From contig NZ_BMJM01000003.1 of the NCBI RefSeq assembly GCF_014643455.1, positions 62,001 through 126,000 of the forward strand: a DNA stretch of 64,000 nucleotides. Reading direction: 5' to 3'. The notes under the pieces were generated by a model that worked only from the letters and a program-made list of their open reading frames with translations, had not been told where the DNA came from and ran no database searches. Position numbers and translations under genes: made by a program. Shown piece after piece: positions 25,030-33,351 of this stretch. The DNA comes from Sandarakinorhabdus glacialis (lineage in GTDB: Bacteria; Pseudomonadota; Alphaproteobacteria; Sphingomonadales; Sphingomonadaceae). The stretch's first letter is position 1, and each line of letters begins with the position of its first letter.

Positions 25030-25177
25030 TCGCGCCGGCGACGACACCGAAACGGCGGCGGGGACCATCCCCGCCGCCCTTTTCGCGTCATTCGCGCCTT
25101 TTTCCGCAGTGCGCGGCATCCTGAACAATTGCCCCGGGGCCGCTGCGACACTATCTCCAGAATAGCTTGCGATATGC

Positions 25178-25192
25178 GAACAAATCTGGAAC
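25178..25192 (+). promoter_or_regulatory. LexA (SOS) box upstream of uvrA
   Basis: GAAC (25178-25181), seven bases, GAAC (25189-25192). The alphaproteobacterial LexA operator is GTTC-N7-GTTC, which reads GAAC-N7-GAAC on the other strand. It ends 10 bases before the uvrA ATG, a position where bound LexA would block initiation. This is the only such box noticed near a repair gene in this window. Confidence 0.75.
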
Positions 25193-25202
25193 AAACCTCC
25201 TC

Positions 25203-28086
<2,884 letters not shown>

Positions 28087-28088
<2 letters not shown>

Positions 28089-28570: not shown

Positions 28571-28677
28571 ATCCTCTCCCAACCCGCTCCTCCCCACGAG
28601 GGCGAAGCAACCATCAACCCACACAGCCAAGCCGCCACCCGCGCAGAAAGCCCAAGCCCCCAAACCTCACCCCCACT

Positions 28678-30775
28678 ACCCGTCACCCCGGCGAAGGCCG
28701 GGGCCCATCTCCCGCCCCTCCAAAACGCCCAATCCACCAAAGCCCACCCTTGTCCTCCCCCTCAAGGGGGGAGGCGAGAGACGGCAAAGCCGGCCCGGGT
28801 GGGGGTGACGCAACAAGCCAACCCCTGCCCTCACCCCACGCGGGCGAGGCGTTCGTGCAGCGAGCGACGCAGATGCCAAGCCGCCCGGGAAGTCCTATCT
28901 CCCAAGGCCCGCCCCCTCCACCGTCACCCGGCAAAGCCCCACCCCCTCCACCCGTCACCCCGGCGGAGGCCGGGGCCCATCTCCCGCCCCTCCAGAACGC
29001 CCCAATCAAGCAAAGCCAGCCCGTCCTCCCCCTCAAGGGGGACGGCGAGAGACGGCAAAGCCGGCCCGGGTGGGGGTGACACAACAAGCCAACCCCTACC
29101 CTCGCCCCACACGAGCGAGGCGTTCGTACAGCGAGCGACGCAGGTGCCAGGCCGCCCGGGAAATCCTATCTCCCAAGGCCCGCCCCCTCCACCATCACCC
29201 GGCGAAGGCGCACCCCCTTCCACCCGTCACCCGGCAAAGCCCCACCCCCTCCACCCGTCACCCCGGCGCAGGCCGGGGCCCATCTCCCGCCCCTCCAAAA
29301 CGCCCCAATCCACCAAAGCCCAGCCTTGTCCTCCCCCTCAAGGGAGCAGGCGAGAAACGGCAAAGCCGGCCCGGGTGGGGGTGACGCAACAAGCCAACCC
29401 CTGCCCTCGCCATGAGAGCGAGCCGTTCGTACAGCGAGCGACGCAGGCGCCAGGCCGCCCGGGAAATCCTATCTCCCAAGGCCCGCCCCCTCTACCGTCA
29501 CCCGGCAAAGGCCCCCCCTTCCACCCGTCACCCGGCGTAGCCTCACCCCCTCCACCCGTCACCCCGGCGGAGGCCGGGGCCCATCTCCCGCCCCTCCAGA
29601 ACGCCCCAATCAACCAAAGCCAGCCCGTCCTCCCCCTCAAGGGAGCAGGCGAGAAACGGCAAAGCCGCCCCGGGTGGGGGTGACGCAACAAGCCAACCCC
29701 TGCCCTCACCCCACGCGAGCGAGCCGTTCGTGCAGCGAGCGACACAGGTTCCAAGCCGCCCGGGAAGTCCTATCTCCCAAGGCCCGCCCCCTCCACCGTC
29801 ACCCGGCGAAGGCCCACCCCCTTCCACCCGTCACCCGGCGTACCCCCGCACCCTCCACCCGTCACCCCGGCGCAGGCCGGGGCCCATCTCCCACCCCTCC
29901 AGAACGCCCCAATCAACCAAAGCCCACCCTTGCCCTCCCCCTCAAGGGGGGAGGCGAGAGACGGCAAAACCGGCCCGGGTGAGGGTGACGCAATGAGGAA
30001 ACCCCTGTCCTTGCCCCACGCGAGCGAGGCGTTCCCACAGCGAGCGACGCTGGTGCCAAGCCGCCCGGGAAATCCTATCTCCCAAGGCCCGCCGCCTCCA
30101 CCGTCATCCGGCGAAGGCCCACCCCCTTCCACCCGTCACCCGGCGTAGCCCCACCCCCTACTACCCGTCACCCCGGCGCAGGCCGGGGCCCATCTCCCAC
30201 CCCTCCAGAACGCCCCAATCAACCAAACCCAGCCCGTCCTCCCCCTCAAGGGGGGAGGCGAGAGACGGCAAAACCGGCCCGGGTGAGGGTGACGCAACAA
30301 GCCAACCCCTGCCCGCTCGCCCCACACGAGCGAGGCGTTCGTACAGCGAACGACGCAGGTGCCAGGCCGCCCGGGAAACCCTATCTCCCAAGGCCCGCCC
30401 CCTCCATCGTCACCCGGCAAAGGCCCACCCCTCCACCCGTCACCCCGGCGCAGGCCGGGGCCCATCTCCCGCCCGTCCAGAACGCCTCAATCCACCAAAG
30501 CCCACCCTGGTCCTCCCCCTCAAGGGGGGAGGCGAGAGACGGCAAAGCCGGCCCGGGTGGGGGTGACGCAACAAGCCAAACCCTGCCCTCGCGCCATGCG
30601 AGCGAGGCGTTCGTGCAGCGAGCCACGCAGGTGCCAGGCCGCCCGGGAAATCCTATCTCCCAAGGCACACCCCCTCCACCGTCACCCGGCGAAGGCCCAC
30701 TCCTTCCACCCGTCACCCGGAGTAGCGCCACCCCCTCCACCCGTCACCCCGGCGGAGGCCGGGGCCCATCTCCCG
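28678..30775. repeat. seven-unit tandem repeat array
   Basis: Each unit begins with CCTCCCCCTCAAGGGGGGAG and passes through GGCAAAGCCGGCCCGGGTGG, a GTGACGCAACAAGCCAACCC segment, GAGCGAGGCGTTCGT, GCCGCCCGGGAAATCCTATC, and one to three copies of a CCACCCGTCACCCGG sub-repeat, ending in GCCGGGGCCCATCTCCC and AGAACGCCCCAATC. Unit anchors are at 28753, 29024, 29329, 29628, 29933, 30237 and 30511, so spacings are 271, 305, 299, 305, 304 and 274. A partial unit (28678-28752) leads in, and the last unit ends abruptly at 30775. Units differ by scattered substitutions, mostly transitions, and by sub-repeat number. Long open frames cross it but have no ribosome sites. Confidence 0.85.
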
Positions 30776-31060
30776 ACTTCGCAGAAAACTGCCCTTTCCC
30801 ACCGCAGAACGCGCGACACCGTCGCAAACCGGCAGCAAAGCCGCGTCCGTCTACCGACAGGACCACTACCGCGCTCGTTCTGAATTACAGCAAGTCACAC
30901 AGCAGTCACTGTCGAGTAACGAACGACCAGTGAACAATGGCCATTGCAATCCGTCTGTTAATGTCTACTATCAAAGCGTTGACTTTGGCGTGAAGCGCGG
31001 CAGGCGGGATAACCGTCGGGCACGTGAGTCACTGCTACGGCGAGGCAAAGACTCAGGTCG
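30776..31060 (+). other. structured non-coding leader between repeat array and reverse transcriptase
   Basis: About 285 bases with no convincing gene, changing from G/C-rich at the array edge to mixed composition. TCGTTC (30875-30880) pairs with GAACGA (30921-30926) around short internal hairpins such as ACAGCAGTCACTGT. AGTCACTG occurs at 30904 and again at 31026. A 12-base direct repeat, ACCGACAGGACC, is at 30853-30864 and 31134-31145. Defence-associated and retron reverse transcriptases usually have a non-coding RNA in this position; whether this region is transcribed is unknown. Confidence 0.35.
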
Positions 31061-32329
31061 ATGCCAAGTTCGCGCGGCACGGGCCTATTGGTTCCGCTGC
31101 GAAGGTCAGCGCAGCGTCAGATGGGTCAGGCTAACCGACAGGACCCGCGAGACGTGCAATCAAAATTACTCAAATCTGTTCATTCTATGCATAATCTTGA
31201 AATGGCTTGGCGAGTCATAGAACGCAATGGTCGGCATTCAAATTCGGAAGCCGTGCGCAATGAGATCGCTAGATTTGCCGAGGACCCCTCCAAAAAATTT
31301 CGATCTATGCAGCGGGCGCTTTCGCGAAGCGACTTCGTCTTCGAGCAAGCTCGGGGAGTTCCCATTCCTAAGGTTGATGCGAGAGGAAAGCCAACCGGCA
31401 AATACCGCCCAATTGTTTTAGCTCCACTTGAGGCTCGAATAGTTCAGAGAGCCCTACTGAATGTACTTGTGGAAATTCCGGCACTTGTCCCATTCGTGAA
31501 CACGCCTTATAGTTTTGGAGGGCTCCGGAAGTCCAAGGGAAATTCTACGCTAGCCTCTAGCGATGATCGGAAGTCCATATCCGCGGTACCAGCAGCTATC
31601 GAAGCTATTTTAAATGAGATTTCAAAAGGCGCGCGCTATGTTGCGGGTGCAGATATTACGGCCTCCTTCACAAAAATATCAAAGTCTTCAGTTAGGAAGA
31701 TCATTTCCGAGGCTGTTAACGATCAGGAATTGATGAACTTTTTCGACAAGGCTATTACGGTCGAGCTGTCCAATATAATACGCCTCCGAGAACTTGCTGA
31801 TATTTTTCCTCGTGAGGATATTGGTGTGGCACAAGGAAATTCCTTGTCGCCACTTCTCGGGAATATACTATTGTTTGAGTTTGACCGGATCTTGAATGAA
31901 GGTGACTGCTCCTGCATCCGCTATATTGACGATTTTATCATCCTAGCTCCTTCTGAGAAGGCAGCAAATGCACGTATGCGCAAAGCCATTCAGTTGCTGG
32001 ACGCCCACGGTATGACTTTAGCTCCCGAAAAATCCTCAGAGACCGGTGTTTCGATTGAGAAAGGATTCGAGTTTCTTGGAATCTCGATTGTTCCGGGCTT
32101 GATCCGTCCTACCACTAAAAAGCAGGAGAAATTTCTGGCATCGATCGATGCCATTATACTGGACAGCGAACGTGCATTGATTGGCCTTAGAAACTCCTCT
32201 GAAATCGATCCAAAACTATCGTTGATTGCAACTTTGAAGCGACTTGATGGCACGATTGGGGGCTGGGGAAAACATTACTGGTTCTGTAATGATATCACCT
32301 CGTTTCGGGCCATTGATGACAAGCTTTGA
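31061..32329 (+). CDS. reverse transcriptase (unclassified), possibly truncated by an in-frame stop
   Basis: RNA-directed DNA polymerase, up to 422 residues from the first ATG; ATGs at 31121 and 31187 are also possible starts. Motifs in order: KPTGKYRPIVL and RIVQRALLNVL (about 110-136), first catalytic Asp in VAGADITASF (Asp198), the AQGNSLSPLLGNILL block (257-271), active site RYIDDFIIL (Asp290, Asp291), EKGFEFLGISI (333-343) and a thumb-like RLDGTIGGWGKHYWFCND (394-411). All palm residues are intact. Codon use is much richer in A and T at third positions than in every neighbour, which suggests transfer. A TGA ends the frame, but 56 further sense codons follow in frame. No maturase/endonuclease domain or retron signature was recognised. 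Confidence 0.88.
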   Translation: MPSSRGTGLLVPLRRSAQRQMGQANRQDPRDVQSKLLKSVHSMHNLEMAWRVIERNGRHSNSEAVRNEIARFAEDPSKKFRSMQRALSRSDFVFEQARGVPIPKVDARGKPTGKYRPIVLAPLEARIVQRALLNVLVEIPALVPFVNTPYSFGGLRKSKGNSTLASSDDRKSISAVPAAIEAILNEISKGARYVAGADITASFTKISKSSVRKIISEAVNDQELMNFFDKAITVELSNIIRLRELADIFPREDIGVAQGNSLSPLLGNILLFEFDRILNEGDCSCIRYIDDFIILAPSEKAANARMRKAIQLLDAHGMTLAPEKSSETGVSIEKGFEFLGISIVPGLIRPTTKKQEKFLASIDAIILDSERALIGLRNSSEIDPKLSLIATLKRLDGTIGGWGKHYWFCNDITSFRAIDDKL

Positions 32330-32500
32330 AAGAAGGTAAGAAGCTATTTGGGGTTGTATTCAAGTGTACGAACGGAACTGAGTGTAGATCGACAGCATTT
32401 ACCGCTCGGATTGACTAACATCGCACAGCTCATCCGTCAGCCGTTTGGATATCCTAAGCTGAAGAAGGGTGATGTCGCGCAGAGGCTTGAACTGGGCTAG
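32330..32500 (+). other. in-frame continuation of the reverse transcriptase after TGA
   Basis: After the TGA at 32327-32329 the same frame stays open for 56 codons to a TAG at 32498-32500. It reads as plausible protein: KKVRSYLGLYSSVRTELSVD then RQHLPLGLTNIAQLIRQPFG and YPKLKKGDVAQRLELG. The first part continues the amphipathic helix that begins at FRAIDDKL. The base composition matches the reverse transcriptase gene rather than the G/C-rich DNA that begins right after the TAG. A recent nonsense mutation or readthrough are both possible. Confidence 0.55.
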
Positions 32501-32691: not shown

Positions 32692-33351
32692 ATGTGCAAC
32701 GAAGTCGCTCGCCGTATCGCCCTCGGCCTCATCCGCGAGGACTTCAGCGAGCTCAAGATCGTCCTTAAATTCTCCGAAGGGCTCCCCAACCTCGCCGCCA
32801 GCGACAGCATCCGCATCACCGACACCACCGCCATCATCCGCGCCGCCGCCGACAACGAAGCCGACATGGTCCAGCGCCGCTGGAGCTGGCCCTCCCCCTC
32901 GAAAAAACCCGTCTACAACTACCGCTCCGAGGGCCGTGAGTTCGCCAACTCGGCAAAGGGCGGCCGGTGCCTCATCCCTGTCGACGGCTTCTACGAATTC
33001 ACCACCCCGGAAACCCCGCCCGGCGACCCGAAGCCCGGCCGCCCAAAACCCGCTCGCAAAGACAAATGGCTGTTCACCGCCCGCGCCGCCGGCGCCAAAC
33101 AAGACGCCAAGCCCCTCCTCTGCATCGCCGGCCTCTGGCGCGCCGATCCGCAAGTCGGCGAGGCCTTCACCATGCTCACCTGTGATCCCGGCCCCGACAT
33201 TGCCCCCTATCACTCCCGCCAGATCGTCCTGATGCCTCGTGAACGCTGGGCCGACTGGCTCGCCGGCACCGTCCCCGCCGCCAGCCTGATCGCCCCCACC
33301 CCCGCCGGCACCCTCCTGGTCACGCCAGCAACGCCCCCTCTCGACAAATAG
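32692..33351 (+). CDS. SRAP (HMCES/YedK) family protein
   Basis: SOS-response-associated peptidase-like protein that forms a thiazolidine crosslink between its Cys2 and abasic sites in single-stranded DNA. The 219-residue protein starts MCNE, so the catalytic Cys is at position 2 once Met is removed. Further conserved parts are RRWSWPSPS (usually RWGLIP-like), NYRSEGREFANSAKGGRCLIPVDGFYEF with the catalytic Glu in the FYEF motif, CIAGLW, FTMLTCDPGPDIAPYHSRQ with the active-site His, and RMP-like LMPRERWADWL. It starts about 190 bases after the reverse transcriptase frame, on the same strand. Confidence 0.93.
   Translation: MCNEVARRIALGLIREDFSELKIVLKFSEGLPNLAASDSIRITDTTAIIRAAADNEADMVQRRWSWPSPSKKPVYNYRSEGREFANSAKGGRCLIPVDGFYEFTTPETPPGDPKPGRPKPARKDKWLFTARAAGAKQDAKPLLCIAGLWRADPQVGEAFTMLTCDPGPDIAPYHSRQIVLMPRERWADWLAGTVPAASLIAPTPAGTLLVTPATPPLDK

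Follow-up and report, generated by a model that had tools for sequence, protein, structure and literature searches.

The window analyzed here, a 64,000-nucleotide stretch of the Sandarakinorhabdus glacialis genome, carries a reverse transcriptase (RT) gene whose composition sets it apart from its neighbors. The locus raises the question of which class of RT it encodes and whether the DNA just upstream belongs to the same system.

The reverse transcriptase and its island

An open reading frame at 31061 to 32329 (+) was confirmed and matches Pfam RVT_1 (E = 6e-18). The RT has a GC content of 0.464 and a GC3 of 0.46, compared with GC values of 0.66 to 0.67 (uvrA and SRAP) and GC3 values of 0.79 to 0.90 for its neighbors, which bears out the AT-richer island with contrasting codon use described in an earlier note on this DNA. 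The island starts near 30800, since the element takes in a promoter and an RNA upstream of the RT. Given that the RT is the only match in its own 3.3-Mb genome and that its spread is patchy (1 carrier among the 24 genomes sampled from the genus), the locus was probably acquired horizontally. The tandem array that the same note had placed at the left edge is indeed there (28661 to 30760); it consists of 305-bp units, ~5 copies plus partials, with a CACCCGTCACCCCGGCGAAGGCCGGGGCCCATC-type palindrome, and pieces of the unit (mostly 32 to 88 bp) are scattered at ~40 other sites in the genome. The island is flanked by uvrA (25167 to 28088) and, on the right, by an SRAP gene of the YedK/HMCES type (32692 to 33351), both of which are DNA repair genes. 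The earlier note had also suggested comparing genome neighborhoods, and when this was done for 47 relatives, no neighboring gene recurred. Since neither uvrA nor SRAP lies beside other G2L4 RTs, the proximity of DNA repair genes to the island is probably a coincidence.

The palm motifs previously read as intact (GADITASF, AQGNSLSP, YIDD, and FEFLG) were all found in the window RT. The enzyme had been called unclassified, but it is almost certainly a member of the G2L4 family. The nearest solved proteins are group II intron-like 4 RTs (PDB 9d5x and 9d4s; E = 1e-58), with the next family at 1e-12, and a tree of 74 RTs, drawn up with UG, retron, and CRISPR RTs left out, places it by comparison in a 65-row, mostly YIDD clade apart from the group II intron RTs (support, 100/97). 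The nearest relatives in this tree are loci L073, L015, and L074. Like nearly all clade members, the window RT carries YIDD instead of YADD, a published hallmark of G2L4 (PMC4244168). Active-site variants within the clade are YVDD (L004, L079, and L080) and FIDD (L062). In the alignment to 9d5x, the RT3a plug has E204 for D182, R212 for R190, and a two-residue gap at R191, while R19 alone is kept among the dimer-interface residues R12, Y15, and R19 of the NTE.

Models for other RT classes fit less well. The maturase model TIGR04416 scored 118.5 bits against a cutoff of 300, so that, as previously reported, no maturase domain is recognized, and the retron RT model NF038233 scored 34.8 bits against a cutoff of 235, in line with the earlier exclusion of a retron. 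An Rfam search, both at gathering scores and with E values of up to 10, detected no group II intron RNA (domain V or D1 to D4) around the open reading frame. The view of a group II-like RT lying outside any group II intron is upheld, the enzyme being in a separate clade and without an endonuclease. Nor is the locus a diversity-generating retroelement (DGR), as had also been stated, since the window contains a single copy of the upstream repeat described below and no template/variable pair with A-specific changes at this locus. PADLOC reported its generic RT model (E = 9e-36) and UG17 (E = 3e-27), the latter spanning residues 176 to 420 only and scoring below the generic model. These matches reflect generic RT-core similarity, whereas the PDB match and the tree point to G2L4.

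Although the open reading frame of the earlier note exists and encodes an RT, its start does not hold. The first 31 codons (31061 to 31153) are not protein, since they are conserved as noncoding RNA and the same frame contains stop codons in several relatives. Translation likely starts at GTG 31154, 10 nt past an AGGA. The 3' end of the gene is interrupted, as follows.

31154 to 32329 (+): G2L4-type RT with a GTG start, 391 amino acids, ending at a premature TGA (PDB match, tree, and alignment)
32327 to 32329 (+): in-frame TGA, an Arg codon in the nearest relative, L073 (EKVRSAIGAYLG versus DDKL*KKVRSYLG in the window)
32330 to 32500 (+): remnant of the C terminus, in frame to TAG 32498 to 32500 (KKVRSYLGLYSSVRTEL...RQPFGYPKL), aligning with the C termini of relatives and containing no further stop

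The relatives' C-terminal REPFSYPK is matched by RQPFGYPK beyond the TGA. The thumb, group II-like in the reading of the earlier note, is incomplete, because the TGA interrupts a frame that is open to TAG 32498. The lost tail of ~57 codons corresponds to about residues 375 to 411 of 9d5x, the end of the thumb including α4/α5, where mutation weakens the dimers and stability of G2L4 RT (PMC12337344). C-terminal residues 390 to 411 of the dimer interface are thereby removed from the window RT; since relatives keep the C-terminal extension, the lineage is G2L4 and the window copy is a truncated member of it. The simplest reading is a recent nonsense mutation at 32327, with a sequencing error being possible. 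Given that the TGA removes the tail, including the thumb end used for dimerization, the window RT is probably impaired or being lost.

A structured RNA element upstream of the RT

When ~60 relatives were compared, most G2L4 loci had a common layout of promoter, R1, spacer S, R2, H, and RT. The window keeps one promoter-like site (P1), one R, and H ahead of the RT and lacks S, a second promoter-like site (P2), and a leader ORF.

30944 to 30971 (+): P1, promoter-like TTGCAA-N16-TACTAT, ending ~10 to 12 nt before R (read from the sequence)
30981 to 31114 (+): R, putative RNA domain structured as three hairpins, of which most relatives have two copies (R1 and R2) and the window one (covariation)
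31115 to 31126 (+): H1 (CGTCAGATGGGT), which in two-copy relatives pairs with S1; its partner is missing in the window
31134 to 31146 (+): H2 (ACCGACAGGACCC), which holds the likely RT ribosome-binding AGGA (31140 to 31143) and in two-copy relatives pairs with S2; its partner is missing in the window

The R domain is 120 to 150 nt long, and comparison of 25 loci, including the window, indicates that its fold has been maintained by covariation. The 27 predicted pairs were 96.1% paired, compared with 87.5% in shuffles and 34 to 48% in slid controls, and there were 54 compensatory cells versus 14.9 in shuffles (0 of 500). Because the structure was derived from the same alignment, the slide control flatters the fold, and more weight belongs to the shuffles and the compensatory counts. 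A covariance model that included the window in its training set matched R there at 30965 to 31154 (E = 2e-46), and it gave no useful E values in far relatives. In far relatives (RT identity of 27 to 35%), folding R alone produced the same order of three hairpins; for many loci, the gain of single-sequence folding over shuffles was only modest (z, +0.1 to −4.2). No Rfam family matched R. Taken together, these data make it very probable that a conserved RNA element lies upstream of the G2L4 RT.

Three other readings of the upstream DNA were rejected. A small membrane protein was considered since an open reading frame runs through R2 in some relatives, but this was replaced by the RNA reading because stops occur in others, no start is conserved, and the distance from R1 to R2 is not divisible by 3. 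A DGR template/variable pair in relatives was discarded since the R1/R2 differences are not A specific, and a group II RNA remnant was discarded since Rfam recognizes none. One annotated protein, the 64-amino-acid hypothetical WP_124169534.1 of Pseudomonas aeruginosa (L055, 5732 to 5926), overlaps R2 and is probably a spurious call; another frame of the same motif there encodes the conserved CKNVP leader ORF.

R1/R2 pairs of at least 70 bp were present in 39 loci, typically measuring 117 to 152 bp with starts 334 to 425 bp apart. Within a locus, the two copies had a median identity of 99.2% (minimum, 91.3%), whereas the median identity to the nearest other locus was ~81%; this comparison revealed greater identity within than between loci in 30 of 39 cases; the remaining loci had a near-identical sister among those compared. 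Elsewhere in the same loci (718 kb), close direct repeats were found in only two, as tandem arrays, a third listed match being L071's own RT element. Two R copies were also seen in closed or complete records (G641/L073, G615/L074, G763/L083, G331/L062, and plasmids L055 and L056), indicating that the two-copy state is not an assembly artifact. Among other RTs checked (five from group II introns and two others that are divergent), only that of Streptomyces had a repeat upstream (112 bp, 80% identical). The layout may reach beyond G2L4, since a very divergent Acinetobacter plasmid RT with YADD (L056, 3400 to 5197) is nevertheless preceded by a 126-bp R1/R2 pair.

The transcription signals follow the same arrangement. 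P1 of the window is weak and absent from the output of the consensus scan. In 38 relatives, the best σ70-like site (mean score, 7.33 versus 6.46 in shuffles) ended a median of 11.5 nt before R1 (4 to 14 nt in 29 of 38), so R1 begins within a few nucleotides of the expected transcription start. P2 (TTG...AAAAA...TANNCT) lies within S, ~75 to 150 nt before R2, in most loci. A spacer motif, ATGCAAAAACGTGCC, is shared by the majority of two-copy loci, and single-copy loci having upstream sequence all lack it; in 30 of 32 motif loci, it lies in a short leader ORF with an SD (M-x-[C/S]KNVP), where it reads as CKNVP or SKNVP. A scan of viral contigs with this motif was set aside because only 1 of 8 matches (L071) has a G2L4 RT and the others look like chance.

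R is single copy in the genome to which the window belongs, and the spacer motif is absent from that genome, which contains one chance match with 1 mismatch. The reduced arrangement would be what either recombination between R1 and R2 or assembly collapse of the repeats leaves behind. About 16 loci, including the window, have a single R; they are scattered over the tree and several have an intact RT, so two R copies cannot be strictly required. Although collapse of 130-bp repeats may lie behind the single-R state in many short-read drafts, L063 is single-R in a 2-contig genome.

Predicted spacer-leader pairing and candidate functions of the locus

In two-copy loci, S1 immediately follows R1 and S2 comes ~40 nt later, while H1 and H2 immediately follow R2, before the RT start. 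S1-S2 and H1-H2 occur in the same order, which rules out S as an inverted copy of H. In ungapped and anchored tests, S1:H1 complementarity scored 23.2 within loci and 16.0 across loci, and the 21 distinct S2 octamers matched H2 at 7.26 of 8 positions within loci and 5.87 of 8 across loci. Neither value was reached in 100,000 permutations (0 of 100,000 each), a significance that is somewhat overstated since loci were treated as exchangeable; a free duplexfold comparison was too permissive per locus. S2:H2 had 39 compensatory cells versus 13.8 in shuffles (0 of 500). The paired sequences themselves differ between distant loci (L055, GGGGCTCATCAG/CTGATGAGCCCC; L038, CTTACCAG/CTGGTAAG; and L047, CCTGTCGA/TCGACAGG). 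Comparison across loci thus indicates that S:H complementarity is maintained by compensatory change. An exact 12-nt copy of H2 (ACCGACAGGACC) is present at the left edge of the island (30853 to 30864), 281 bp upstream of the other copy (31134 to 31145); an H2-like insertion target was considered and rejected because the 12-mer at 30853 has no counterpart in other loci.

We favor, as the probable reading of these comparisons, a horizontally acquired two-component module consisting of a G2L4-family RT and a structured RNA encoded directly upstream, in which R would bind an RT dimer and S:H pairing would tie the RNA to RT expression. In the intact form (e.g., L073 in a closed genome or the P. aeruginosa plasmid L055), P1 would start the RNA at R1, whose three hairpins would be followed by S1, S2, P2 within the spacer, the leader ORF, R2, H1, H2, and the RT. 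The RT probably binds R, and two R domains would suit a homodimeric RT. S:H pairing would link the R1-S transcript with the leader of the RT and set RT synthesis, since H2 overlaps or adjoins the ribosome-binding site, although H2 lacks an SD in some loci (e.g., L055); that this pairing regulates the RT is about an even proposition, perhaps a little less. The RT would then help to mend broken DNA, a role already demonstrated for its P. aeruginosa counterpart. A bolder extension appears unlikely to us: that G2L4 RTs are RNA-protein machines using a two-domain RNA with group II-like guide pairing as guide or template, with copying by the RT keeping the 130-nt domains identical. By itself, R1/R2 identity could come from ordinary recombination.

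The pairing also fits regulation alone, in which R1-S would act as a small RNA of the antisense type, with R2-H serving as a leader that controls translation of an RT that never uses the RNA. S1 and S2 pair with H1 and H2 just upstream of the RT start, the P2-like site and conserved leader ORF resemble an attenuation leader, and the purified P. aeruginosa G2L4 RT joins ends without added RNA (PMC12337344). Since the identity of R1 and R2 over ~130 nt and the strong R fold would be left unexplained, we consider this account less probable, if a serious competitor. The repeats could instead mark a template of the A-B-A' type, in which the RT reaches the 5' end of R1 and the cDNA reanneals to R2, producing tandem-repeat DNA as in DRT2 and DRT10. 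R1 starting near the predicted transcription start, the R1/R2 identity within each genome, the preference of G2L4 RT for strand annealing (PMC12337344), and the A-B-A' realignment used by DRT10 (PMC12632851) are in keeping with this; on the other hand, DRT10 repeats are a few nucleotides rather than 130, B holds a promoter-like sequence as well as a leader ORF, no effector gene recurs as a partner, and the unit length varies freely (334 to 425) without reading-frame constraint, all of which make templating quite improbable. Retro-copying, in which EBS/IBS-like S:H pairing would direct a copy of the 5' portion of the R1-S transcript to the position of R2, would keep R2 equal to R1 and would explain why the repeat starts near the predicted promoter start and ends where S:H pairing begins, with S1-S2 and H1-H2 in an order that fits EBS/IBS topology and R1/R2 evolving in concert. 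Recombination between direct repeats homogenizes too, however, and the R1/R2 differences bear no copying signature such as A-specific change, nothing resembles Rfam group II RNA, and S1 shows no complementarity to the would-be primer, the bottom strand; we find retro-copying very unlikely.

The stand-alone anti-phage RT suggested by the earlier note is likewise a long shot. The patchy distribution and the PADLOC matches given above could be taken that way, and many RT-ncRNA pairs are defense systems, but those matches are to the RT core of what the PDB match and tree place in G2L4, the SLATT partner needed by UG17/DRT10 does not recur, and the G2L4 enzyme studied is a double-strand-break-repair RT (PMC12337344). 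With no recurrent neighbor in 47 relatives, the suggestion is left without specific support. A tandem duplication devoid of RNA function, with recombination alone keeping R1 and R2 alike, would draw on the readiness of direct repeats to recombine and on the existence of single-copy loci; it can scarcely be credited given that the same layout accompanies very divergent RTs, that two copies are retained even though repeats are prone to deletion, and that the covariation of R and of S:H strongly disfavors it.

The RT family is already known, whereas we found the folded RNA element that usually precedes it described nowhere, although an earlier mention is possible. The G2L4 literature searched, which did not take in Park et al. 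2022 (Cell) or the 2017 survey of RT-associated RNA motifs, makes no mention of an upstream RNA or operon; a PNAS paper calls domesticated RTs free-standing, and the crystal structure and atomic force microscopy (AFM) papers treat G2L4 RT as a free protein on broken ends (PMC12337344 and PMC13015716). G2L4 RT is under active study as an enzyme domesticated to repair DNA; should a structured RNA with an internal 130-nt duplication and maintained guide-like pairing always come with its natural locus, then its regulation, and perhaps its substrate, has been missed so far. If the module is real, G2L4 would join the RTs known to operate together with a dedicated ncRNA (retrons, DRT2, DRT9, and DRT10) and would provide a new example of concerted evolution beside an RT.

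Comparison with known systems

DRT10 (UG17; PMC12632851) likewise combines an RT with an adjacent structured ncRNA bearing an A-B-A' repeat, but its A/A' repeats are 2 to 4 nt versus ~130 nt here, it needs a SLATT protein, of which none recurs here, and its RT probably belongs to a different clade. DRT2 (PMC12039810), with an RT from a different family, has an upstream pseudoknotted ncRNA and repeat-making cDNA synthesis; for the endless ORF of DRT2, there is no evidence in the repeat unit here. Mobile group II introns share RT ancestry with G2L4, and the S1-S2/H1-H2 order corresponds to EBS2-EBS1/IBS2-IBS1, which is a resemblance only; domain V, a D1 to D4 match, a maturase-level score, and an endonuclease are missing here. 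DGRs have a near-identical repeat pair beside the RT, as do the relatives, in which, in contrast, both copies are noncoding and upstream of the RT, the differences are not A specific, and there is no variable protein.

The closest comparison is with the P. aeruginosa G2L4 RT (9d5x and 9d4s), a homodimer that acts in double-strand-break repair via microhomology-mediated end joining (PMC12337344). It belongs to the same family, has YIDD, and aligns with the window RT over nearly its full length (E = 1e-58), although the window RT lacks about residues 375 to 411 (the thumb end and α4/α5 of the dimer interface) and a counterpart of R191 in RT3a. Published G2L4 work treats the RT as free-standing, without RNA (PMC12337344). 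In contrast, the P. aeruginosa plasmid relative L055 (E = 1e-117 to 9d5x) has the same RNA element upstream, which makes the question directly testable.
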